Shown here: positions 1,658 to 10,960 of the stretch, one piece after another
Position numbering within the stretch: the stretch's first letter is position 1
Layout of the letters: the number at the start of each line of letters is the position of its first letter
Assembly (NCBI RefSeq): GCF_009761675.1
Contig: NZ_QUZH01000003.1
Span: forward strand, 124,001 to 188,000
DNA: 64,000 nucleotides
Direction of reading: 5' to 3'
DNA from: Bhargavaea sp. CC-171006
Lineage (GTDB): Bacteria; Bacillota; Bacilli; Bacillales_A; Planococcaceae
Translations under genes and position numbers: made by a program
The notes under the pieces: generated by a model
What the model was told of the DNA's origin: nothing
Database searches by the model: none
What the model saw: the letters and a program-made list of their open reading frames with translations, nothing else

Positions 1658-3172
1658 TTATTGTTTAACCAGTGCTTCCACTTCGGACGGGTTGACCCAT
1701 GTTTCATTCGTCCAGCCATGCAGGTCATAGTCGCCCATCGCTGTTTCGGCAAAGGACTTGAACGAGTCTGCAGCCCCTACAGCTTCCGCATGCTTCAGCG
1801 CTTCGAGGCGGATATTCTCGGTGTTGCCCGCATAGTTGATTTCATAGAGTTCATGTCGTCCGCCAAATTCGGAACCGATGGAATCCCAGACCATCTTCAG
1901 CAGCTTGATCTTGTCTTCCGCTTCGATCCCGGTGCCGCGATAGTACTTGTCGATATACGGCCGGAGCTCAGGATTCAGAAGATCGCTTGCGCTGGACGGG
2001 AGTTGGATCAGGCCGCCTGCGACCACTTGCTCGAAGATGTTCTTCACTCGTACCCATGTGTTTGGTGCGAGGACGCGATAGGCATTTGCGTAGAATCCGT
2101 TCGGAACTTTTAGGCCGTTCATGCCCTGGTCCGGCTCGCTTGCCATGGCGGTCGTCAGTCCCCAGATCATGTTTCTGAGGGCGATGACTTCCCCGACATT
2201 CACCTGAACGCCCCTGAATTGGTGGGTCCCCGCTGCCTCTGTCGCCTTCAGAAGCAGTCCGGCCATGAAGTCCAGCTTGACAGCCAGGCGGGTCGCGCCA
2301 TGGAACGAGAATCGGTTCACAAACTTGGTTCCCGCGACAAAATTGTTTGATACTTCCACGTTTTGATAGGCCAGAACATCTTCCCACGGGATGAAGACAT
2401 TATCCAAAACGATCACGGCATCATTTTCATCAAACCGGCTGGAAAGCGGATAATCGAACGGCTTTCCGTTGGTTGTTGCATTCAGCTCAAACGATTGGCG
2501 GCTGATCATCTTTACGCCTGGCGCGTTCATCGCTACAAAGAAGATGAGAGCGTGGCTCTGGTCACCGCCTCCGAGGTCTTTCGGACCGTAATTGGCGACG
2601 AAGTTATAATTCGTAAGAGGAGCAGCCGTCCCGACCATCTTGGCACCGCTTACAATGATTCCGTCATCTTTTTCTTTCACCACACGGACAAAGACGTCTT
2701 TGTTTTCATGCAGTGGTTTTGAGCGGTCGACTTGCGGGTTAATGACGGTATGGTTGACGAATGAGACATCTTTCGAGACTTTTTGGTACCAGGCACGGGC
2801 GTTGTCTTCGAATCCTTTGTAGAATTCGGCGTATCCGTTCAGGTGGCCGATGAATGAAGCTTTATAATCAGGTGTTCGTCCCATGAATCCGTAGTTCAGC
2901 TTTGACCATTCTGCAATGGCATCCCGCTGCTCGATGAGATCCTGAGAGCTGGTCGGTGTCACAAAGAATTTATGTGTTTTGTCTCCAAATTCGTTGGTTG
3001 TGACGAGTTTCTTGCTTAGTTCCTTGTCGTGGAGGGCGTCATACATTCTGGCATAGGAGCGGGCTGCGTTACGGAAGGCCGGATGGGTGGTCACATCGTC
3101 AACTTTTTCACCGTTCAAGTAGACTGCTCTTCCATCTCTGAGGCTTTCTAAGTATTCGTTGCCTGTTAACAT
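1658..3172 (-). CDS. Oxygenase component of phenol / 4-hydroxyphenylacetate 3-monooxygenase (HpaB/PheA1 family)
   Basis: This 504-aa FAD-dependent oxygenase belongs to the HpaB family, related in fold to acyl-CoA dehydrogenases. It uses reduced flavin from its reductase partner to hydroxylate a phenolic substrate ortho to the hydroxyl. The ATG at 3172 is chosen because GGAGG lies eight bases upstream; the longer frame starts from TTG inside that site. Length equals the 504 aa I recall for Geobacillus phenol hydroxylase PheA1. With a catechol-type dioxygenase next door and a phenol-like sensor upstream, phenol to catechol is the most economical reading, but 4-hydroxyphenylacetate cannot be excluded from sequence alone. 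It is the first gene of its transcription unit, with a cre-like site in its promoter region. Confidence 0.88.
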   Translation of the reverse strand: MLTGNEYLESLRDGRAVYLNGEKVDDVTTHPAFRNAARSYARMYDALHDKELSKKLVTTNEFGDKTHKFFVTPTSSQDLIEQRDAIAEWSKLNYGFMGRTPDYKASFIGHLNGYAEFYKGFEDNARAWYQKVSKDVSFVNHTVINPQVDRSKPLHENKDVFVRVVKEKDDGIIVSGAKMVGTAAPLTNYNFVANYGPKDLGGGDQSHALIFFVAMNAPGVKMISRQSFELNATTNGKPFDYPLSSRFDENDAVIVLDNVFIPWEDVLAYQNVEVSNNFVAGTKFVNRFSFHGATRLAVKLDFMAGLLLKATEAAGTHQFRGVQVNVGEVIALRNMIWGLTTAMASEPDQGMNGLKVPNGFYANAYRVLAPNTWVRVKNIFEQVVAGGLIQLPSSASDLLNPELRPYIDKYYRGTGIEAEDKIKLLKMVWDSIGSEFGGRHELYEINYAGNTENIRLEALKHAEAVGAADSFKSFAETAMGDYDLHGWTNETWVNPSEVEALVKQ

Positions 3173-3234
3173 TTCTTCATCCTCCAATGCTATTATTCTC
3201 TGACTATTCCTTCATCTTTCAACATCAGTCTATT

Positions 3235-3248
3235 TGAAAACGCTTTCC
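3235..3248. promoter_or_regulatory. cre-like CcpA site upstream of the monooxygenase operon
   Basis: TGAAAACGCTTTCC matches 13 of 14 positions of the cre consensus TGWAARCGYTWNCW. It lies about 65 bp upstream of the oxygenase start, within the spacer of a weak minus-strand promoter (TTGTTG, 17 bp, TAGACT). This fits catabolite repression of an aromatic-degradation operon; binding is inferred. Confidence 0.6.
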
Positions 3249-3322
3249 CCAACAATGACCGCAACTGCTCAAACATCATGAGTTTTTAGACATCAGCTGT
3301 CAGTCTTGATGGACCCATCAAA

Positions 3323-3360
3323 AAAACTTCCGTTCCCCTGCATAGGTGAACGGAAGTTTT
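3323..3360 (-). terminator. Rho-independent terminator of the aromatic regulator gene
   Basis: The arms AAAACTTCCGTTC and GAACGGAAGTTTT form a 13-bp stem with a 12-nt loop, and a U run follows on the minus strand. It sits directly after the stop codon of the regulator gene and separates it from the monooxygenase operon. Confidence 0.85.
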
Positions 3361-5250
3361 TCAATAGCTCTCCAATTTAATCTTGCCGATAGATACCAGC
3401 ACCTGTATGGATAACAAAAGTTTGTATGCTGTTTCAGGATTCCGCAACTCCCGATCGAGAAGCTTCTCTATTTTCCCGATCCTGTACCTGAGTCCGCTTA
3501 AAGATAAGGCAAGGTCTGAAGATGTCTGTTCCAGATTCCCGCCATTTTGCAAATACACATACAACGTTTTGATCAGATCCAATTTCTTGTCATCATTCAG
3601 ATCTTCGCTGAGGGGGAGCAGTGTGTGAACGGCTATTTTTTCAATATCCTTCTGGTTATTCGGATTGATCAGTGGACCGATGATCCCTAACGATTCAAAC
3701 TCCTGTATAGAATGATATCCCGTTGTCATTCTCAGCGCTGTAAGTGCTTCTTCATAGCTGGCCTTTACTTTTTCAATTTCATCAGAACACATGCTGATTC
3801 CCGCCCTGACGGATGAGGAAGGATAATGTTTTCTCAGATAACTCAAGTAGCTTTCACATGTGCCCCTGATCCCATGCTTCTCAATTTCTTCTTTCAGGAA
3901 CAGCAATACGAGATGGCCTGCCTGTTGCCCGATCAAACTATGAATACCGCAATTCTTAAAGAAGACTGATGTGCTGTTCATTACTTCCTCCAGGACAGCC
4001 AGTTCCTTTTTGTAATCCGGTTCATCATGTTCAAATTGAATAGCCACAATATAGTAGGGCTGAAATAAATCGACCCCGACAAAGTGACTTCTCCTTACAA
4101 TCTCTTCCTTTGTAAATTCATTGTTTAAAACACGCTCCAAAAACCTTCCCTTTAACCTTTCCTGAGCTGCAGTCTCCGTTTGCCTGTTCAGGATATACAA
4201 TGCACAAACCGAAGATATCCGTTCAATGACCATCTGTAATGACGCTGAATCGTCGTTTTCACATTCCCGGCAAACAAAAGAACAATATCCGATGGTTTGC
4301 CCCTGTAAGACGACCGGGGTGGTAATCCTGATATGATCGTGCATTTCAATAATCTTCGTCCGCCGGAACGTCTTCTTCATTGTTGCTTTGCATTTCACAA
4401 ACGATTTGAATGACTGGTTCAGCCTGTCCGATTGTCCGTCCGGTATCCCGCCGGATGCAATCGGCTGCAAATCCGCATCTTCAATCAAGATCGCCGTCTT
4501 GGTCAAGCGATAAACGAAATCCATGATGGATTCCAGATCCTTTCCGTCCAGAATCTCCTCTGTCAATTTATTATAAATATCGGATACGCTTTTTAGGCGA
4601 TTTCGTTCCTCGAGCAGTTTTTCATAGGTTAACTCCAACTCCTTGACGATGGGTTCTTCATTGTAAAACTTCAGTTCATCATTCATATCTTCCGTCCAAT
4701 AATCACTTGTCCTTCCGACAAATCTGCAGACACTGTCGCCTTTCCCTCTGCAGGCTACTTCTTTGATCAATACGGTCTGATTGCTGATTTCGCTCAGAAA
4801 ACCGCTGACATAACCGACCAATGAATGGCAGACCGGCGCATCGGCAGTCCCGAAATGACTGACGTGCTCCTCCGCTTCATAAGAAAACTCCCAAGTCCCT
4901 TCCAGATACACGGAGTACTTATCGTTGCGCTTTTTTACCGCCAAATGGGTGATCATCGGAATGACATGCCCCTGCAGTCGATGAAAAACAGTTCCTTTCT
5001 GGATGATTTCCTCGATTGGAGCACCTTTGTATTTGGCTAATATGGCCTTGGCATCCTTTCGGCCCAGATCAGAACCGTATCGGATCAAAAAACCTTTCAC
5101 TCTGTCCTTTCCGATGTTTGAATACAGGTCCTTTCTCAAAATCCCGAAAGAAGAGGTCGGAACCAAAACGGCTCTGCTGCCCTCTGAATAGATCAGTCCA
5201 TTATGTCCAATGCTGATATCCCGCTCTAACTCTGGATTTGTAATTTCCAA
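3361..5250 (-). CDS. Phenol-sensor-like transcriptional activator (XylR_N + V4R domains with PucR-type output)
   Basis: A 629-aa regulator (from TTG at 5250). Residues about 10-110 resemble the XylR N-terminal sensor and 130-180 a V4R domain. The zinc quartet of the MopR/DmpR sensors is present with identical spacing (Cys141, Glu164, Cys167, Cys175), as are the two residues that contact phenol there (His90 in FHRLQG, Trp120). A helical linker, a GAF-like/PucR-like middle and a PucR-type HTH_30 end (SLSGLRYRIGKIEKLL) follow, instead of the AAA+/Fis sigma-54 module of DmpR. TTG at 5250 is preferred because AGGAGTGAT precedes it; the longer frame from 5310 would begin inside a perfect cre site. 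It is transcribed toward the monooxygenase operon and is its likely activator. Confidence 0.85.
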   Translation of the reverse strand: MEITNPELERDISIGHNGLIYSEGSRAVLVPTSSFGILRKDLYSNIGKDRVKGFLIRYGSDLGRKDAKAILAKYKGAPIEEIIQKGTVFHRLQGHVIPMITHLAVKKRNDKYSVYLEGTWEFSYEAEEHVSHFGTADAPVCHSLVGYVSGFLSEISNQTVLIKEVACRGKGDSVCRFVGRTSDYWTEDMNDELKFYNEEPIVKELELTYEKLLEERNRLKSVSDIYNKLTEEILDGKDLESIMDFVYRLTKTAILIEDADLQPIASGGIPDGQSDRLNQSFKSFVKCKATMKKTFRRTKIIEMHDHIRITTPVVLQGQTIGYCSFVCRECENDDSASLQMVIERISSVCALYILNRQTETAAQERLKGRFLERVLNNEFTKEEIVRRSHFVGVDLFQPYYIVAIQFEHDEPDYKKELAVLEEVMNSTSVFFKNCGIHSLIGQQAGHLVLLFLKEEIEKHGIRGTCESYLSYLRKHYPSSSVRAGISMCSDEIEKVKASYEEALTALRMTTGYHSIQEFESLGIIGPLINPNNQKDIEKIAVHTLLPLSEDLNDDKKLDLIKTLYVYLQNGGNLEQTSSDLALSLSGLRYRIGKIEKLLDRELRNPETAYKLLLSIQVLVSIGKIKLESY

Positions 5251-5295
5251 GTAGCTATCACTCCTATGACCACTGGTGATTAGGACGGTGTTCAC

Positions 5296-5309
5296 TGTAA
5301 ACGCTTGCA
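5296..5309. promoter_or_regulatory. cre site (CcpA) in the leader of the aromatic regulator
   Basis: TGTAAACGCTTGCA matches all 14 positions of the cre consensus TGWAARCGYTWNCW. It lies downstream of the promoter at 5332-5360 and upstream of the TTG start, a position where bound CcpA typically acts as a roadblock. Confidence 0.75.
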
Positions 5310-5331
5310 ATTATACTGATTCAATATTTAC

Positions 5332-5360
5332 ATATTAGTGAATTATCAAATATCAGTCAA
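5332..5360 (-). promoter_or_regulatory. Sigma-A-type promoter of the aromatic regulator
   Basis: On the minus strand TTGACT and TAATAT are separated by 17 bp. The expected start point lies about 70 bp before the TTG start codon, with the cre site between them. Confidence 0.65.
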
Positions 5361-5461
5361 TCGAACTAAAGGACCCTTGCCAAAAACAGGCGAAACGATC
5401 TCATCCAGACGCTTCGATCAGGGTTCGCTTTCACCATCCCCTCTTCCATAAAAATGAAAAA

Positions 5462-5486
5462 GAGAAGGCGGTTATTGCGCCTTCTC
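5462..5486 (-). terminator. Terminator, second after the RsbR-like gene
   Basis: GAGAAGGCG and CGCCTTCTC form a 9-bp stem with a 7-nt loop. On the minus strand it is followed by TTTTTCATTTTT. It lies about 130 bp past the RsbR-like stop and backs up the hairpin at 5529-5558. Otherwise the 5361-5613 gap shows nothing else I recognise. Confidence 0.75.
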
Positions 5487-5528
5487 CATTTCCCTCTCAC
5501 CCATCCACAGAGATCTTTATCATAATAA

Positions 5529-5558
5529 GACGCCCCGACTGAGTTTAGTCGGGACGTC
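5529..5558 (-). terminator. Terminator after the RsbR-like gene
   Basis: GACGCCCCGACT and AGTCGGGACGTC form a 12-position stem with one mismatch and a 6-nt loop, followed on the minus strand by TTATTAT. It is the first hairpin downstream of the gene at 5614-6531. Confidence 0.65.
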
Positions 5559-5613
5559 CCTTAGTTGTTGATAGGTCATAATCGTGAAACTTTACCTGCA
5601 AAAACTCTGAGTA

Positions 5614-6531
5614 CTAAACACCATTCGGGTTTAAGGACAGAGCATTTTCCAATGTTGAATAGGTTGGGATATTCTCAAACGAAAGCCCCAGATGAATGGC
5701 TGTTTGAGCAATCTCAGGTCTGATTCCGCATAGGATTGTTTTAACGCCCAATAGCGTTAATGCCTCGGACATTTGGAAGATTTGCTGGGCCACCATTGTA
5801 TCGATCGTTACGACTCCGGATAAGTCGATATAAAGGCTTTCAAGCCGTTTTTCATTACTTTGCCTTAACGCATTTTCGAGTATGAAATTGGCACGTTCAC
5901 TATCAATATCGCCAATAAGCGGCAGCAATCCGATATTTTTTGTAATCGTGATGACAGGTGAACTCAACTTCTTTATAAGCTCCCGGTGAGCGTTTAACTT
6001 CTTCATTGCGTGTCGGTCATACTCATCGAAAAACCATACAGTAACCTGATCCATCGTGTCTATAATCAGCTTTTCCCACGCCTCTTTATCCTCTGGCGAA
6101 TACTGATTTTCGTGCGAAGCCCCAAATTCTTCGATTAACTTTAGATATTGATTTCGTGTTCTATAAAATTCACCCAGTATCAGAGTCGAGGAAGTCTCCA
6201 GATGTTTTTGATCAGAAGCGACCATAACGATCCAGTCTTCCAACTCTTTTAAAAACTTTTCTTCTGCGATAAAAACGCTAAAGAAAATATGATGGAACTT
6301 ATTGTTTTGATTTTTAAGGAATGTAAGTTCTTTAGGGTCATTCGTAGTATAGACGCCTCCTGATGAGGCTTTATCCAATCCCTCGTACCATTCCTCTGTT
6401 AATTCCGTGGCTTTACAAATGAGAAAATCATAAAGCTGCTGATACTTCGTCAATTTCCCCCGTCCTCCATCCAAGTATTTAGTTTGATCATATTTTGGAA
6501 ATTCAATTTTTCGTACTGTCAGCATCGGCAT
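5614..6531 (-). CDS. RsbR-family stressosome-like sensor (N-terminal RsbRD region, C-terminal STAS domain)
   Basis: A 305-aa protein. The first roughly 180 residues are helical and resemble the RsbRD-type sensory region; residues about 190-300 form a STAS domain. The conserved loop DLSGVVTIDT carries the threonine position that RsbT phosphorylates in RsbR proteins. Family members sit in the stressosome and control sigma-B through RsbT. None of the other rsb genes is adjacent, so this is an orphan paralogue like B. subtilis RsbRB/RC/RD, not the rsbR of a sigB operon. No clear ribosome binding site was found for the chosen ATG; the second Met, two codons later, is also possible. Confidence 0.8.
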   Translation of the reverse strand: MPMLTVRKIEFPKYDQTKYLDGGRGKLTKYQQLYDFLICKATELTEEWYEGLDKASSGGVYTTNDPKELTFLKNQNNKFHHIFFSVFIAEEKFLKELEDWIVMVASDQKHLETSSTLILGEFYRTRNQYLKLIEEFGASHENQYSPEDKEAWEKLIIDTMDQVTVWFFDEYDRHAMKKLNAHRELIKKLSSPVITITKNIGLLPLIGDIDSERANFILENALRQSNEKRLESLYIDLSGVVTIDTMVAQQIFQMSEALTLLGVKTILCGIRPEIAQTAIHLGLSFENIPTYSTLENALSLNPNGV

Positions 6532-6614
6532 TCCAAAAAATCATATCACAAAAAGGCACATATGCCTTCTCCTCTATCCGTCAGAATTATCACGAGTTTT
6601 GTGCAACATAAAAA

Positions 6615-6637
6615 AGCTCGGAGCCTCTCTCCAAGCT
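6615..6637 (-). terminator. Terminator of the GNAT gene
   Basis: AGCTCGGAG and CTCCAAGCT form a 9-bp stem with one mismatch and a 5-nt loop, followed by TTTTTT on the minus strand. It abuts the stop codon of the acetyltransferase at 6638. Confidence 0.8.
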
Positions 6638-7189
6638 TTAATTCCATTCTCTTTTTAAAAGTGATAAAGAATAGTGGTCATAGTATTTTCCTCTATAGAG
6701 GTGCTTGTCTCTATAAATGCCTTCATTTTTAAAATTTAGGCCCAATAACAATTTCCATGATCGTTGGTTTTCTACTGCAACATATGCATTAATACGGTTT
6801 AGCTTCATGTTGTCAAAACCGCTCCCGATAGCAGCGGTCAATGCCTCTTTCATATATCCCCGGCCCCAAAATTCAGGAGATAAGTCATAACCGATCTCAG
6901 CTATATGATTGGTCCGGTCCCATAAATGAAAGCCGCATGTCCCGATCCGTTCGCCGGTTTCCTTCTTAACCAAGACCCATCTGTTGTACCCGGCATTTTC
7001 CGGGTCGGAGTAGAAATCCACCAGCTCGGCTGCTTCTTCTCTGCTTGTGAAATTCTCTTCATCGTAAAGATACTCACAAACTTTGTCATCACTGAAATGT
7101 TCATAAAGAAATTCTGTATCTTCTTCGCTTACATTTCTCAAGAACAGCCGTTCCGACCCCAAATCGGGAAAGAGTAATGGCTTACTCAT
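6638..7189 (-). CDS. GNAT-family N-acetyltransferase (RimJ/RimL-like)
   Basis: A 183-aa protein of the RimJ/RimL-type GNAT fold that would transfer an acetyl group from acetyl-CoA to an amine. The start SERLFLRNVSEEDTEFLYEH and the core NHIAEIGYDLSPEFWGRGYM, including the Gly-rich GRGYMKEA segment that binds the CoA pyrophosphate, are typical. A following LNRINAYVAVENQRSWKLL motif is the usual C-terminal half. AGGAG precedes the start. It is monocistronic with its own terminator. The acceptor, whether a ribosomal protein N-terminus or a small molecule, cannot be told. Confidence 0.8.
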   Translation of the reverse strand: MSKPLLFPDLGSERLFLRNVSEEDTEFLYEHFSDDKVCEYLYDEENFTSREEAAELVDFYSDPENAGYNRWVLVKKETGERIGTCGFHLWDRTNHIAEIGYDLSPEFWGRGYMKEALTAAIGSGFDNMKLNRINAYVAVENQRSWKLLLGLNFKNEGIYRDKHLYRGKYYDHYSLSLLKREWN

Positions 7190-7231
7190 GGTTCATCTCC
7201 TAAAGGACTACTTGTGCGTGAGATCGGATCC

Positions 7232-7546
7232 TCACGCCTTTTCTTCTTCCTTATCCTTTTCATCCATGCGCTCCAGAATCTCTCCGTAGCCGCCGGAGCC
7301 GTAGTCGAAGCAGCGCCGGACGCGGGAGATGGTGGCGGTGGAGGCGCCGGTTTCGTTTTTGATGTTTTCGTATGTGTAGCCCATTTTCAGCATCCGCGCC
7401 ACGTTCAGCCGCTGTGAGAGCGACTGGACCTCACTGATCGTCGCGAGGTCATCGAAGAAGCGGTAGCATTCGTCCAGGTCACGCAGTTCGAGGATCGCTT
7501 CGAACAGCGCGTCGGTCTGCGGGCCGCGCAGTTTTTCGAGTGCCAT
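7232..7546 (-). CDS. yerC: TrpR-like helix-turn-helix protein YerC
   Basis: A 104-aa protein of the YerC/YecD family, related to the Trp repressor DNA-binding domain. Residues about 38-85 (EVQSLSQRLNVARMLKMGYTYENIKNETGASTATISRVRRC, in pieces) contain the HTH; the repressor function of this family is not established as far as I know. AAGGAGGTG precedes the start. It follows yerB and yerA in the same direction, as in B. subtilis, where the next genes lead to pcrB-pcrA; here the GNAT gene follows instead, marking a synteny break. Confidence 0.88.
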   Translation of the reverse strand: MALEKLRGPQTDALFEAILELRDLDECYRFFDDLATISEVQSLSQRLNVARMLKMGYTYENIKNETGASTATISRVRRCFDYGSGGYGEILERMDEKDKEEEKA

Positions 7547-7586
7547 GTCGGCACCTCCTTTATCTGTTCAATCAGTTCATACGGAT

Positions 7587-8603
7587 TTAAGGGTGTTGGG
7601 TCAACGTATCGGAAATGTCCGGTACAAGATGTATCCACGTCTTTCCCGGTGCGAGGGCAAACGGTTGGTCGCCAGCCATCACTGTCGGAATTCCGTCCCG
7701 GAGTTCCCAGGATGCCTGATAGACAAGTCCGCTCCTGAGAACAGCGGCCTTTCCGCCTGCCGCAAGATCAAGGGAACGGCGTCCCTTGTCGTCGATGACC
7801 CTGTGAGGGACTTCAAGAATCAGGACATTTGCCAGATGCACCGGCTGATTTTCCGCGGCATCCACGGTCTCTTCCCCTCCGGAAAATCTTGTATACGAGG
7901 CAGTAAGAGGATCATAGACATATCGGCTGTTGAAATTCGGGAAGCGGCCGTATGTGATGTCAGCCTCAAGAGACTCTTCGCCTCCGGCCGGTGGTTCCGG
8001 ATCAAATCGCCAGCCAGGATCTTTCGGGTTGTCCATCCGGATGCCGCTGTCCATGGCTCCCTCAAATACCGCATCACCCGTAATATACGAATTATGAGGG
8101 GCTTTCCGGTCTTTGGAACGCAGGAATAAAGTTCCCTCGTACCGGATGCCGTTCAGATGATCCACGGCTCCGGAATCCAGAAGCTCTTTCGCCTCCGGGC
8201 TATGGCCGTGGGCGATGAATAATGCGCCGTGCCCGGCGGCCAGATCTATGAAATAGTCGCGGGCACTTCTGATCGGCCCCATTTTCTCGGGAATCTCCGA
8301 CTGGTAGAGAGCGAGCAGCCTCGTGACCTCGTATTCCGCAAGCATTTCATAGATGACATCGGCCTCCGCCAATCCGGACTGTGGCCGTGCGTCCGGATGA
8401 TTGTTCAGCGTTGCGAGGACAGGCCGCATGTCCGGCTCTGCCTCCAGTTCAAGACCTGTATATGGTGCGGTGTAAGTGACTTCCGCAATCGCTTCTTCCG
8501 GCTTCTCTTCATTGTCGGATTCCGGCTTACCAACTTCGCCTTCCGAACATCCTGCAAGCAGGACCGCGGCGGCAGCCGCCGCGATCCAATTTCTTTTTTT
8601 CAA
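7587..8603 (-). CDS. yerB: DUF3048-domain lipoprotein YerB
   Basis: A 338-aa exported lipoprotein. The signal peptide (KKR, then an alanine-rich stretch) ends in the lipobox LLAGC with Cys19 as the lipidated residue. A short acidic linker precedes the DUF3048 domain, recognisable by RPVLATLNNHPDARPQSG, MGPIRSARDYFIDLA and NSYITG. The start is TTG with AGGGGG eight bases upstream. Family members are membrane-anchored proteins of uncertain function. It sits between yerA and yerC as in B. subtilis. Confidence 0.88.
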   Translation of the reverse strand: MKKRNWIAAAAAAVLLAGCSEGEVGKPESDNEEKPEEAIAEVTYTAPYTGLELEAEPDMRPVLATLNNHPDARPQSGLAEADVIYEMLAEYEVTRLLALYQSEIPEKMGPIRSARDYFIDLAAGHGALFIAHGHSPEAKELLDSGAVDHLNGIRYEGTLFLRSKDRKAPHNSYITGDAVFEGAMDSGIRMDNPKDPGWRFDPEPPAGGEESLEADITYGRFPNFNSRYVYDPLTASYTRFSGGEETVDAAENQPVHLANVLILEVPHRVIDDKGRRSLDLAAGGKAAVLRSGLVYQASWELRDGIPTVMAGDQPFALAPGKTWIHLVPDISDTLTQHP

Positions 8604-8657
8604 AGTCTGTTCCCCCTATGCTTGAACTCGGTCATCTATGTATATGCGGACCTTGTC

Positions 8658-10388
8658 CTATCGCATGAGTGCGGGGAACATGACTTTGCCGTTCATGACA
8701 TCGTAAATGCCTTTTTGCGTGATACGCACATACGGAAGATGGGTAGCCTGGAGGAACAGGAGCGTGTAAACCGCATCACCGTGTTTGTAGCCGCGCGCCT
8801 TCAGTTCCTCTTTGAGTTTCTTTTCCTGGGCGATCAGCTGTTCCATCGGGGCTTCCGACAGCACGCCACCGAGCGTAAGCGGCAATTCAGCGATGACTTT
8901 GCCGTTTTCCGTCAGCGCCATCCCTCCGCCGATTTCCTTCAGGCGGTCAAATGCGAGTTTCATGTCGGCCATGTTCTTGCCGATCATGATGATGTCGCCC
9001 GTGTTGGAGTAGGAAGAGGCAAAGCCGAGAACATCGTCCGCGAAGCCTTTGATGAGCGTGTTCACCCGCCAATTTCCTTCACGGTCGATCAGGATGAGGA
9101 AACTCTGATTCTGCCCGGAAGGCAGTTTCTGATCGGACGGGTCGACATCGACGCTGTACGGCTTCGTGATGACGTCGTTCACCATCTGAACCCCGAACGG
9201 GAACGAGAATTGGAAGTCGTTTTCATCCAGCTCATACGGCGGGTTGTATGGTTCAAGCCACGACCAGTCGATTTCCGGGAATTCATAAGCGTCTTCCCCG
9301 TCCCGCTTCATCCAGACACCTTTTGACAGGACATCCGTCGGCACGGGATTTTCCGGGCTTTCCAGGAAGTTAAGGTTCGCATATCTCCCGGTTGCGATCA
9401 GGCCGTGCAGGTTCTCCATATCGTAATAGCGCGCAATATTGTATGTCGCCATCGCATAAGCATCTTCCGGTCTGACCCCGGCATCGAGTGCGGCACGGAT
9501 GCACTTGTCCATGACACCGTCTTCGTGGAACGACGGCGTCGAGCCGTCGGTCGTCATCATGAGATGATCGAAGATGTCGAGGTTCTTCTCGAGGATTCCC
9601 TTCAGCATGTCCGGAAGGTCCGGCCGGATCGATGAATAGCGGAGCGTCACGGCGTAGCCCTGCAGGATGCGCCTTTCCACTTCTTCCGCCGTCATCGCCT
9701 CATGGTCGCCGTCCGCACCGAGCAGGCGAAGCCGAGCGAGCGTCCGCTCGGAAGCACCGGGAAGATGCGCTTCGATTTTCATGCCGGCCTGCTTGGCGTT
9801 CTGGATCCAATAAAGCATCTGGTCATCGCCCGCAAGAAGCCGCGGCCAGGCGGTGAGCTCGCCGCCCATCAGTACGTCGGGGCGCGCCATCCATTCACCG
9901 ACCGCCTGTGTCGTGTACAGTTCCTCTTCGCGGTCCATCTGTGTCTGCGAATCAAACCGTGACCACCAGTAAAACGAAAACGGCAAGGCCTTGAGCTGGT
10001 CAAGGATTGCAAACGCTTTCCAATTCTCCATCGTCAAAAACAGCACGCTGTTGTCCGAGATGAAGGTCGTCGTCCCCCGCCGGGATGCATAATCCGCGAA
10101 AGAGAGGGGATTATATAGCTGATATGGATGCACATGCGGCTCGATATAGCCCGGCACGATTACTTTGCCGGAGGCATCGACCACTTCTGTGCCTTCCATG
10201 TTTTTCGGCATGTCCGAACCCGCATAGACGATGCGGTCACCGGAGATCCAGATGTTGCCCGAGATCCATTTTTTCATGATCCCGTGCAGGTATGTAGCAT
10301 TCGTGATCAGGAGATCCGGTGCACGCCTGCCGTCGATGACCGCGGTGTGGTTTCGGAGTTCCCTGATTTTCCATGGTGCTTGAGCCAT
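8658..10388 (-). CDS. yerA: YerA, adenine deaminase-like amidohydrolase
   Basis: A 576-aa metal-dependent amidohydrolase close to adenine deaminase (adenine to hypoxanthine and ammonia). The metal-binding E-P-H-V-H motif follows VIVPGYI at about residues 75-82. The C-terminal region (DMKLAFDRLKEIGGGMAL) and ALSEAP-like sequence are typical of the Ade family. AGGGGG precedes the start. The gene next to the purine operon fits a salvage role: adenine taken up by a permease could enter the hypoxanthine pool. B. subtilis YerA is annotated only as putative, so activity on adenine is an inference. Confidence 0.82.
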   Translation of the reverse strand: MAQAPWKIRELRNHTAVIDGRRAPDLLITNATYLHGIMKKWISGNIWISGDRIVYAGSDMPKNMEGTEVVDASGKVIVPGYIEPHVHPYQLYNPLSFADYASRRGTTTFISDNSVLFLTMENWKAFAILDQLKALPFSFYWWSRFDSQTQMDREEELYTTQAVGEWMARPDVLMGGELTAWPRLLAGDDQMLYWIQNAKQAGMKIEAHLPGASERTLARLRLLGADGDHEAMTAEEVERRILQGYAVTLRYSSIRPDLPDMLKGILEKNLDIFDHLMMTTDGSTPSFHEDGVMDKCIRAALDAGVRPEDAYAMATYNIARYYDMENLHGLIATGRYANLNFLESPENPVPTDVLSKGVWMKRDGEDAYEFPEIDWSWLEPYNPPYELDENDFQFSFPFGVQMVNDVITKPYSVDVDPSDQKLPSGQNQSFLILIDREGNWRVNTLIKGFADDVLGFASSYSNTGDIIMIGKNMADMKLAFDRLKEIGGGMALTENGKVIAELPLTLGGVLSEAPMEQLIAQEKKLKEELKARGYKHGDAVYTLLFLQATHLPYVRITQKGIYDVMNGKVMFPALMR

Positions 10389-10492
10389 CGTCGCTGCCCC
10401 CTGACTGTCTATCTGTTACTTTATCTTATCACAGTGTGAAAGTGAAAAAAAGACACACGGCCGAAACCGGGTGTTCGGAAGGAGAAATTAAT

Positions 10493-10960
10493 ATGAATCC
10501 AAATGATCAAACGATTAACATCGGTACGAAAAGTGCCTATCTGCGAATCAGCTCGGGCCTTGCGATGCTTGCCTGGGGCACCTCGCGCATGGTCCGGGAT
10601 CCGCGCAGCATGGCCGGCCCGATCCTTGTCCTGTCCGGCGCCTGCAAGACGGCGGAAGGCATCGTCCGCTACTGCCCGTTGAAGGAAATGATGAACGGCG
10701 GCATGGACGCCATGATGAAGCCCGAAGTCAGCGGCGGCACGCTGCCATCCGTATCCTCTTCCGGAAACGCAAACGGTTCCGGTGGATCCGGCGGTGCCGA
10801 TGAGCAGATTCAGGCGTTCATGTACGGAGGCTTTGACGGGGCCGGGTCGGAACAAAATGTTCCATCCGGACAGAATGAATCCGCTTACAAAAACAACGGC
10901 GGTTCCAGCCAGTCGGGATCTGGACAAGGCCAGAAAAAAGACCCGATGCAGTCCATCTGA
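10493..10960 (+). CDS. DUF2892-type small membrane protein with Gly/Ser-rich tail
   Basis: A 155-aa protein on the opposite strand to its neighbours. Residues 1-70 resemble the YgaP-type DUF2892 region: a basic start, two hydrophobic helices (LRISSGLAMLAWG, MAGPILVLSGACKTAEGI) and the CPL end. From about residue 85 the chain is Gly/Ser/Asn/Gln-rich and probably disordered. The ATG at 10493 follows GGAAGGAGAAATTAAT. It diverges from yerA and converges on purD. No function is known to me. Confidence 0.7.
   Translation: MNPNDQTINIGTKSAYLRISSGLAMLAWGTSRMVRDPRSMAGPILVLSGACKTAEGIVRYCPLKEMMNGGMDAMMKPEVSGGTLPSVSSSGNANGSGGSGGADEQIQAFMYGGFDGAGSEQNVPSGQNESAYKNNGGSSQSGSGQGQKKDPMQSI

Follow-up and report, generated by a model that had tools for sequence, protein, structure and literature searches.

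A PheR-like regulator with a DmpR-type sensor and a PucR-type output beside a predicted phenol operon in Bhargavaea

How a sensor of the DmpR/MopR type would act when it is carried by a PucR-type output, and which compound it would report to the operon beside it, are the questions raised by a regulator gene of Bhargavaea sp. CC-171006. The gene lies at 3361–5250 of the window, by which we mean the whole stretch of 64,000 nucleotides that was analysed; this and every other feature of the window located below is on the minus strand. Read from a TTG at 5250, the pheR-like product has 629 amino acids, and the ORF listing has its frame open up to a further TTG at 5310, which sits within a cre match (see below). 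On the sequence, TTG 5250 appears the likelier start. Since it is preceded by AGGAG (5261–5265) and is kept in both Bhargavaea cecembensis (locus L023) and Oceanobacillus (L024), the span of 3361–5250 given in a preliminary description of this DNA stands. Residue numbers used here count from the TTG at 5310, and are those of that description plus 20.

Four Pfam domains, all over their cut-offs, make up the protein: XylR_N (residues 37–122; 4945–5202; 8.6e-15), V4R (residues 140–200; 4711–4893; 5.8e-13), GGDEF_2 of the PucR/CdaR type (residues 400–528; 3727–4113; 2.4e-14) and HTH_30, the C-terminal helix-turn-helix of PucR (residues 579–636; 3403–3576; 2.4e-13). The regulator gave no Pfam match for an AAA+ sigma-54 interaction domain. 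It therefore has the XylR_N-V4R sensor of the XylR/DmpR class without the AAA+ domain, the HTH_30 together with GGDEF_2 of the PucR/CdaR class, and the full chain of the PheR-like Bacillota class. This is the DmpR/MopR-type sensor on a PucR-type output that had been described previously, and that earlier reading of the sequence proved right in every detail examined. By sequence search the closest solved structures are MopR (6e-29), PoxR (1e-25) and CapR/DmpR (6e-24), with matches covering the N-terminal part of the regulator only; a model of AdeR matches residues 371–637 with a score far under its cut-off. The segment between V4R and GGDEF_2 (residues ~240–395) is perhaps GAF-like. AlphaFold2, run on the regulator with its L023 and L024 relatives, returned a mean pLDDT of 42.7 and the model was set aside.

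Within the sensor, residues C161, E184, C187 and C195 (4726–4830) align with C155, E178, C181 and C189 of MopR, the zinc ligands of that protein, and the steps of 23, 3 and 8 residues are the same in both proteins, as had been claimed. His110 (4981–4983; His90 of the preliminary numbering) aligns with MopR His106 and Trp140 (4891–4893; formerly Trp120) with MopR Trp134; 30 steps separate the pair in the regulator against 28 in MopR, so the two-residue insertion noted between them is real. Every one of 112 full-length Bacillota family proteins retains Trp and the zinc quartet, and 111 of them retain His. The median frequency of the top residue over the 166 sensor columns of these family members is 0.40 and just 11 columns reach 99%, these six residues being among the 11; their conservation is not a product of chance. 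In the sole exception (L130, 7956–9788) Lys replaces the His that anchors the hydroxyl, and neither a hydroxylase-type nor a ring-cleavage gene lies within 7 kb of this gene. The XylR of pWW0, included as a control, has Tyr where the family has His.

A screen of 261 genomes from the order detected XylR_N in 61 (in 59 with a match over the cut-off), representing 11 of 19 genera; XylR_N was also detected in 7 of 398 genomes drawn evenly from the phylum, and in none of 14 control genomes. Three of eight Bhargavaea genomes harbour it, with 1, 3 and 5 copies; the window's genome is among these three and has one. The 112 distinct full-length proteins comprise 101 from 111 regions of the order, the window's regulator (L002), L024–L027, L174–L176 and L178–L180, with L023 merged with L101. 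Seven of the 111 regions hold another type of ORF instead of a family protein and two hold partial ones, and the weak matches G125 C88 and C210 were left out of the region set. Excluded from the 112 were duplicate small loci (L001, L003–L022 and L031–L062), ORFs below 560 amino acids, which are genes at contig ends or split (L019, L126, L146 and L177) and region-clipped copies (L066 and L068), and three proteobacterial controls (L028–L030).

Comparison with the end of the window's protein assigns a PucR-type end to each of the 112, a count outside which fall the outputs of the four cut or split Bacillota copies; an AAA+ probe taken from MobR matched none of the 112 and only the three proteobacterial controls. 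Pfam analysis of 17 proteins, the window's included, listed all four domains in each, with two of the matches under the curated cut-off (GGDEF_2 in L178 and V4R in L070). A tree of 36 fused PucR ends, from which near-copies had been thinned, and 10 stand-alone ends is compatible with one change, but at a support of 69, so that a single origin of the sensor-PucR fusion is no more than possible. Two family members are longer, at 790 and 812 amino acids (L178, 6381–8753; L180, 1358–3796), and in both Pfam places a GAF domain after V4R and ahead of GGDEF_2. ORFs at 6379–8192 of L146 and 7059–8156 of L126 are split or broken family copies in G634 and G407.

The regulator adjoins a hydroxylase-dioxygenase operon, in agreement with the preliminary description. 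Downstream of it are encoded an HpaB-family flavin-dependent oxygenase, likely a phenol hydroxylase (1658–3172; ORF from 3187, with the ATG at 3172 following GGAGG); its flavin reductase partner (1133–1612); and a catechol 2,3-dioxygenase (C23O; 102–1085), with 338.2 bits against the TIGR03211 cut-off of 320.2. The operon extends past the window with genes for acetaldehyde dehydrogenase, 4-hydroxy-2-oxovalerate aldolase, a hydratase/decarboxylase pair, a tautomerase and a semialdehyde dehydrogenase, and its DmpF/DmpG-type end enzymes score above their curated cut-offs. Judged by these predicted products the operon is a catechol meta-pathway, a gene set that, by the established biochemistry of this route, converts phenol or alkylphenols to central metabolites. 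Similar neighbours are common in the family: within 7 kb, a hydroxylase-type gene (HpaB, PheA1 or acyl-CoA-dehydrogenase-like) is found near 95 of the 112 genes, a ring-cleavage dioxygenase near 98 and both near 89. Eight have neither, including L174 with a C23O 7.02 kb away. In 20 control regions, 17 kb stretches at hand-picked positions with one from each of 20 genomes, a hydroxylase-type gene occurred once and a ring-cleavage gene not at all.

The preliminary description had predicted phenol rather than 4-hydroxyphenylacetate as the inducer. Phenol or an alkylphenol is indeed the likely inducer, because the operon encodes a catechol meta-pathway and a separate HpaB-1 equivalog (548.3 against a cut-off of 480.2) sits elsewhere in the genome, at C6:211 kb. 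The part of the claim that made His and Trp the selectors was not supported: these residues anchor the phenolic hydroxyl and therefore cannot separate phenol from 4-hydroxyphenylacetate, and most of the other pocket residues are changed. The HpaB label of the oxygenase would suggest that 4-hydroxyphenylacetate is what the regulator senses; its nearest relatives in the PDB are 4-hydroxyphenylacetate 3-monooxygenases, with a chlorophenol monooxygenase close behind, and the semialdehyde dehydrogenase, although under cut-off with the HpaE and 2-hydroxymuconic models alike, has a slightly better score with the former. However, the oxygenase is under both HpaB cut-offs, the dioxygenase passes the catechol model and falls short of HpaD (189.9 against 321.4), and no HpaD over its cut-off was found in the window's genome; together with the HpaB-1 equivalog placed elsewhere, this makes 4-hydroxyphenylacetate a very unlikely ligand.

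A further alternative keeps the same wiring and makes phenol a poor inducer, the natural ligand being another phenolic such as a cresol, a xylenol or a plant phenol; where the ligand is an alkylphenol it overlaps with the explanation that we prefer. Beyond His and Trp, 11 further residues of the MopR pocket are listed in PMC10715001, and the regulator differs at nine of them, keeping V116 and Y167; the position of MopR Phe132 is Gly in the regulator and in 97 of the 112 family proteins. With only two of 11 matching, the regulator may bind a larger compound or one of another kind. His and Trp are near-invariant across the family and the pocket walls vary, partly with the type of neighbouring cluster: one wall pattern occurs in nine of 11 loci with a Priestia-type oxygenase and C23O, and seven patterns occur across the seven loci of the window's oxygenase type, although kinship alone could give this association. 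The five family copies of genome G400 have five different pockets. Against another phenolic stand the catechol meta-pathway of the operon and the closeness of its oxygenase to that of a phenol-type locus, and we regard this alternative as possible while leaning towards phenol or a small alkylphenol. It is also conceivable that the true input is the perhaps GAF-like segment of residues ~240–395, with the sensor surviving as no more than a structural relic, a suggestion to which the GAF matches in the two longer relatives lend something; set against the retention of His, Trp and the zinc quartet in a sensor that is otherwise so variable, we consider it most improbable.

The regulator gene precedes the operon and a terminator-like hairpin lies between them (3320–3357; −23.4 kcal/mol and z −5.4 by RNA folding), an arrangement that points to the regulator being a transcription unit separate from the operon. 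Upstream of the regulator is a sigma-A-like promoter, TTGACT-N17-TAATAT (5332–5360), with both hexamers unchanged in L023, and a match without mismatch to the cre (CcpA) consensus, TTGCAAGCGTTTACA (5296–5310), that is mismatch-free also in L023 and L024. A sigma-70 scan returned four promoters against a mean of 4.2 in shuffled sequence, which is chance level, and the hairpin at 3320–3357 does not figure in its list; the promoter and terminator assignments are based on the comparison of the window with L023 and L024 and on the computed fold.

For the operon, a three-way comparison of the window, L023 and L024 gave a candidate promoter, TTGTTG-N17-TAGACT (3227–3255), and a candidate operator, TGTCTAAA-N11-TTTGAGCA (3266–3292). 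Common to the three is TGTYTAAA-N11-half-site-N10-TTGTTK-N17-(−10), with the N11, N10 and N17 spacings identical. The repeat is an exact palindrome in L023 (TGTCTAAA-N11-TTTAGACA), has one mismatch in L024 and three mismatches of 8 in the window. Pairwise, the half-sites agree at 12–13 of 16 positions, the N11 spacer at 3–5 of 11, the upstream flank at 9–13 of 27–32 and the downstream flank at 9–17 of 31. An exact 8/8 repeat turns up in 4.7% of shuffles of the L023 region and the inverted repeat by itself is therefore weak; moreover, the element was chosen from the same three sequences that show its conservation, and is therefore a lead and not a test. In four further loci that share the window's type of oxygenase (L087, L090, L092 and L095) the palindrome is not clear by eye; these have a TCATTGTT box followed, by eye, by a −10 after 17 bases. 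The TCATTGTT string is at the −35 in six of the seven loci of this oxygenase type, is absent from L024, and was found in none of the listed loci of other types (14 of 26 PheA1-type and 14 of 21 Priestia-type).

A cre-like site with one or two mismatches to the consensus lies in the spacer of the candidate operon promoter (3234–3249). At up to two mismatches, cre matches number 110 on the plus strand and 153 on the minus strand of the window, with six free of mismatches; as two-mismatch matches are this common, the operon site counts for its place and conservation only. CcpA is encoded in the genome, and control of phenol use by CcpA through both cre-like sites is probable. A sigma-54 promoter for the operon was considered and rejected: no −24/−12 site with up to two mismatches was found in 2535–10891, and the whole window has 24 such matches against 27 expected. 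Sigma-54 itself is encoded in the genome. Both the cre and the −24/−12 matches were counted against the consensus sequences of these sites.

The domains and key residues, the operon, the repeat and the matches to cre are what the sequence shows; we propose that the protein is probably a PheR-like one-component activator of the phenol operon, acting through the N11 repeat on a sigma-A promoter, with repression by CcpA. Phenol or a small alkylphenol would bind to the XylR_N-V4R sensor, which is dimeric in MopR and presumably here too; His110 and Trp140 would hold the hydroxyl of the ligand, and zinc the fold of the sensor. The signal would pass via the linker and the perhaps GAF-like segment to the GGDEF_2-HTH_30 part, which would bind the inverted repeat at 3266–3292, just upstream of the weak −35, and so recruit ordinary sigma-A polymerase to the operon; phenol would then be converted to catechol and on to central metabolites. 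On better carbon sources CcpA would act at the cre sites to repress the regulator as well as the operon. The regulator might instead be a repressor that is released by its ligand. The candidate site is upstream of a poor −35, however, which we infer to be the usual position for an activator, and a repressor seems unlikely here.

A regulator of this kind is already known, and the novelty implied by the preliminary description was too high. Omokoko et al. 2008 (PMC2590616) describe PheR, a protein of 642 amino acids in the phe operon of Geobacillus stearothermophilus, as the first Gram-positive regulator of phenol metabolism, adjoining a two-component phenol hydroxylase and C23O, with 'a variant regulatory mode' and a sub-domain architecture that sets it apart from DmpR and XylR; the text consulted does not name the PucR part of PheR and contains no demonstration of phenol-dependent activation by it. 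PheR (the paper's record DQ146476) was compared through a Parageobacillus plasmid relative of equal length and gene order. The four Pfam domains of the window's regulator are all present in this relative of 642 amino acids, which comes from a locus with the phe gene order and is 34% identical to that regulator. In Geobacillus/Parageobacillus, however, the gene is inside the operon, whereas in the window it precedes the operon with the hairpin between, and the oxygenase there is of a different type from the window's HpaB-family enzyme.

In PMC8696081, 'pucR' is drawn in both the plasmid and chromosomal phenol loci of Parageobacillus thermoglucosidasius and is glossed as a purine catabolism regulatory protein. 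The gene order of genome G194, as far as examined, fits the chromosomal PtPL phenol locus shown there, and we infer that G194 is P. thermoglucosidasius or a near species. Its regulator shares the four domains and is 41% identical to the window's, with 76% identity for the oxygenase and 67% for the reductase but only 30% for the C23O; the regulator is at the opposite end of the locus. MopR, PoxR and DmpR (CapR) have in common with the window's regulator the sensor domain, the zinc quartet, His and Trp; they differ in having AAA+ in place of the PucR-type output and in being sigma-54 systems, whereas the window's operon has no sigma-54 site nearby, and MopR differs also in the pocket residues given above. 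Proteins of the CdaR/PucR type, such as AdeR, share GGDEF_2 and HTH_30, but only the window's regulator has the DmpR-type sensor in front. Among open-licence papers in PMC, none was found that joins a XylR_N/V4R sensor with PucR by name; the family is sizeable in the order and little of it was found in print.

More widely, phenolic sensing in the order may run through one large DmpR-sensor/PucR family working with sigma-A and CcpA, a reading to which we give even chances. A genome would hold up to five copies that have diverged in their pocket walls, each matched to its own ring-hydroxylase/ring-cleavage cluster, and the sensor would have been rewired a single time, either away from sigma-54 control or towards it, before radiating as a repertoire of phenolic sensors. 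Phenol sensors serve as biosensor parts, and MopR, DmpR and PoxR act through sigma-54; a phenolic sensor on an ordinary promoter, if this is what the regulator proves to be, would be easier to transfer among hosts. The census of 112 proteins, with the hydroxyl-anchoring residues all but fixed and the walls variable, is a natural series for the study of pocket specificity, and gives these proteins a testable role in place of the misleading label of purine catabolism regulator.

Proteins with a STAS domain were met on two occasions. In seven regions of the order, ORFs of ~337–379 amino acids have a weak XylR_N match (L166, 7965–8978; L173, 7302–8441; L171, 7926–8975; also L167, L168, L170 and L172). 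The three of these that were scanned all end in a STAS domain and are presumably similar to stressosome proteins of the RsbR type; an aromatic-type sensor on a STAS output is possible for them. Directly upstream of the window's regulator, 5614–6531 encodes a protein of 305 amino acids with a C-terminal STAS domain, for which the best NCBIfam match is the YtvA family, under its cut-off.
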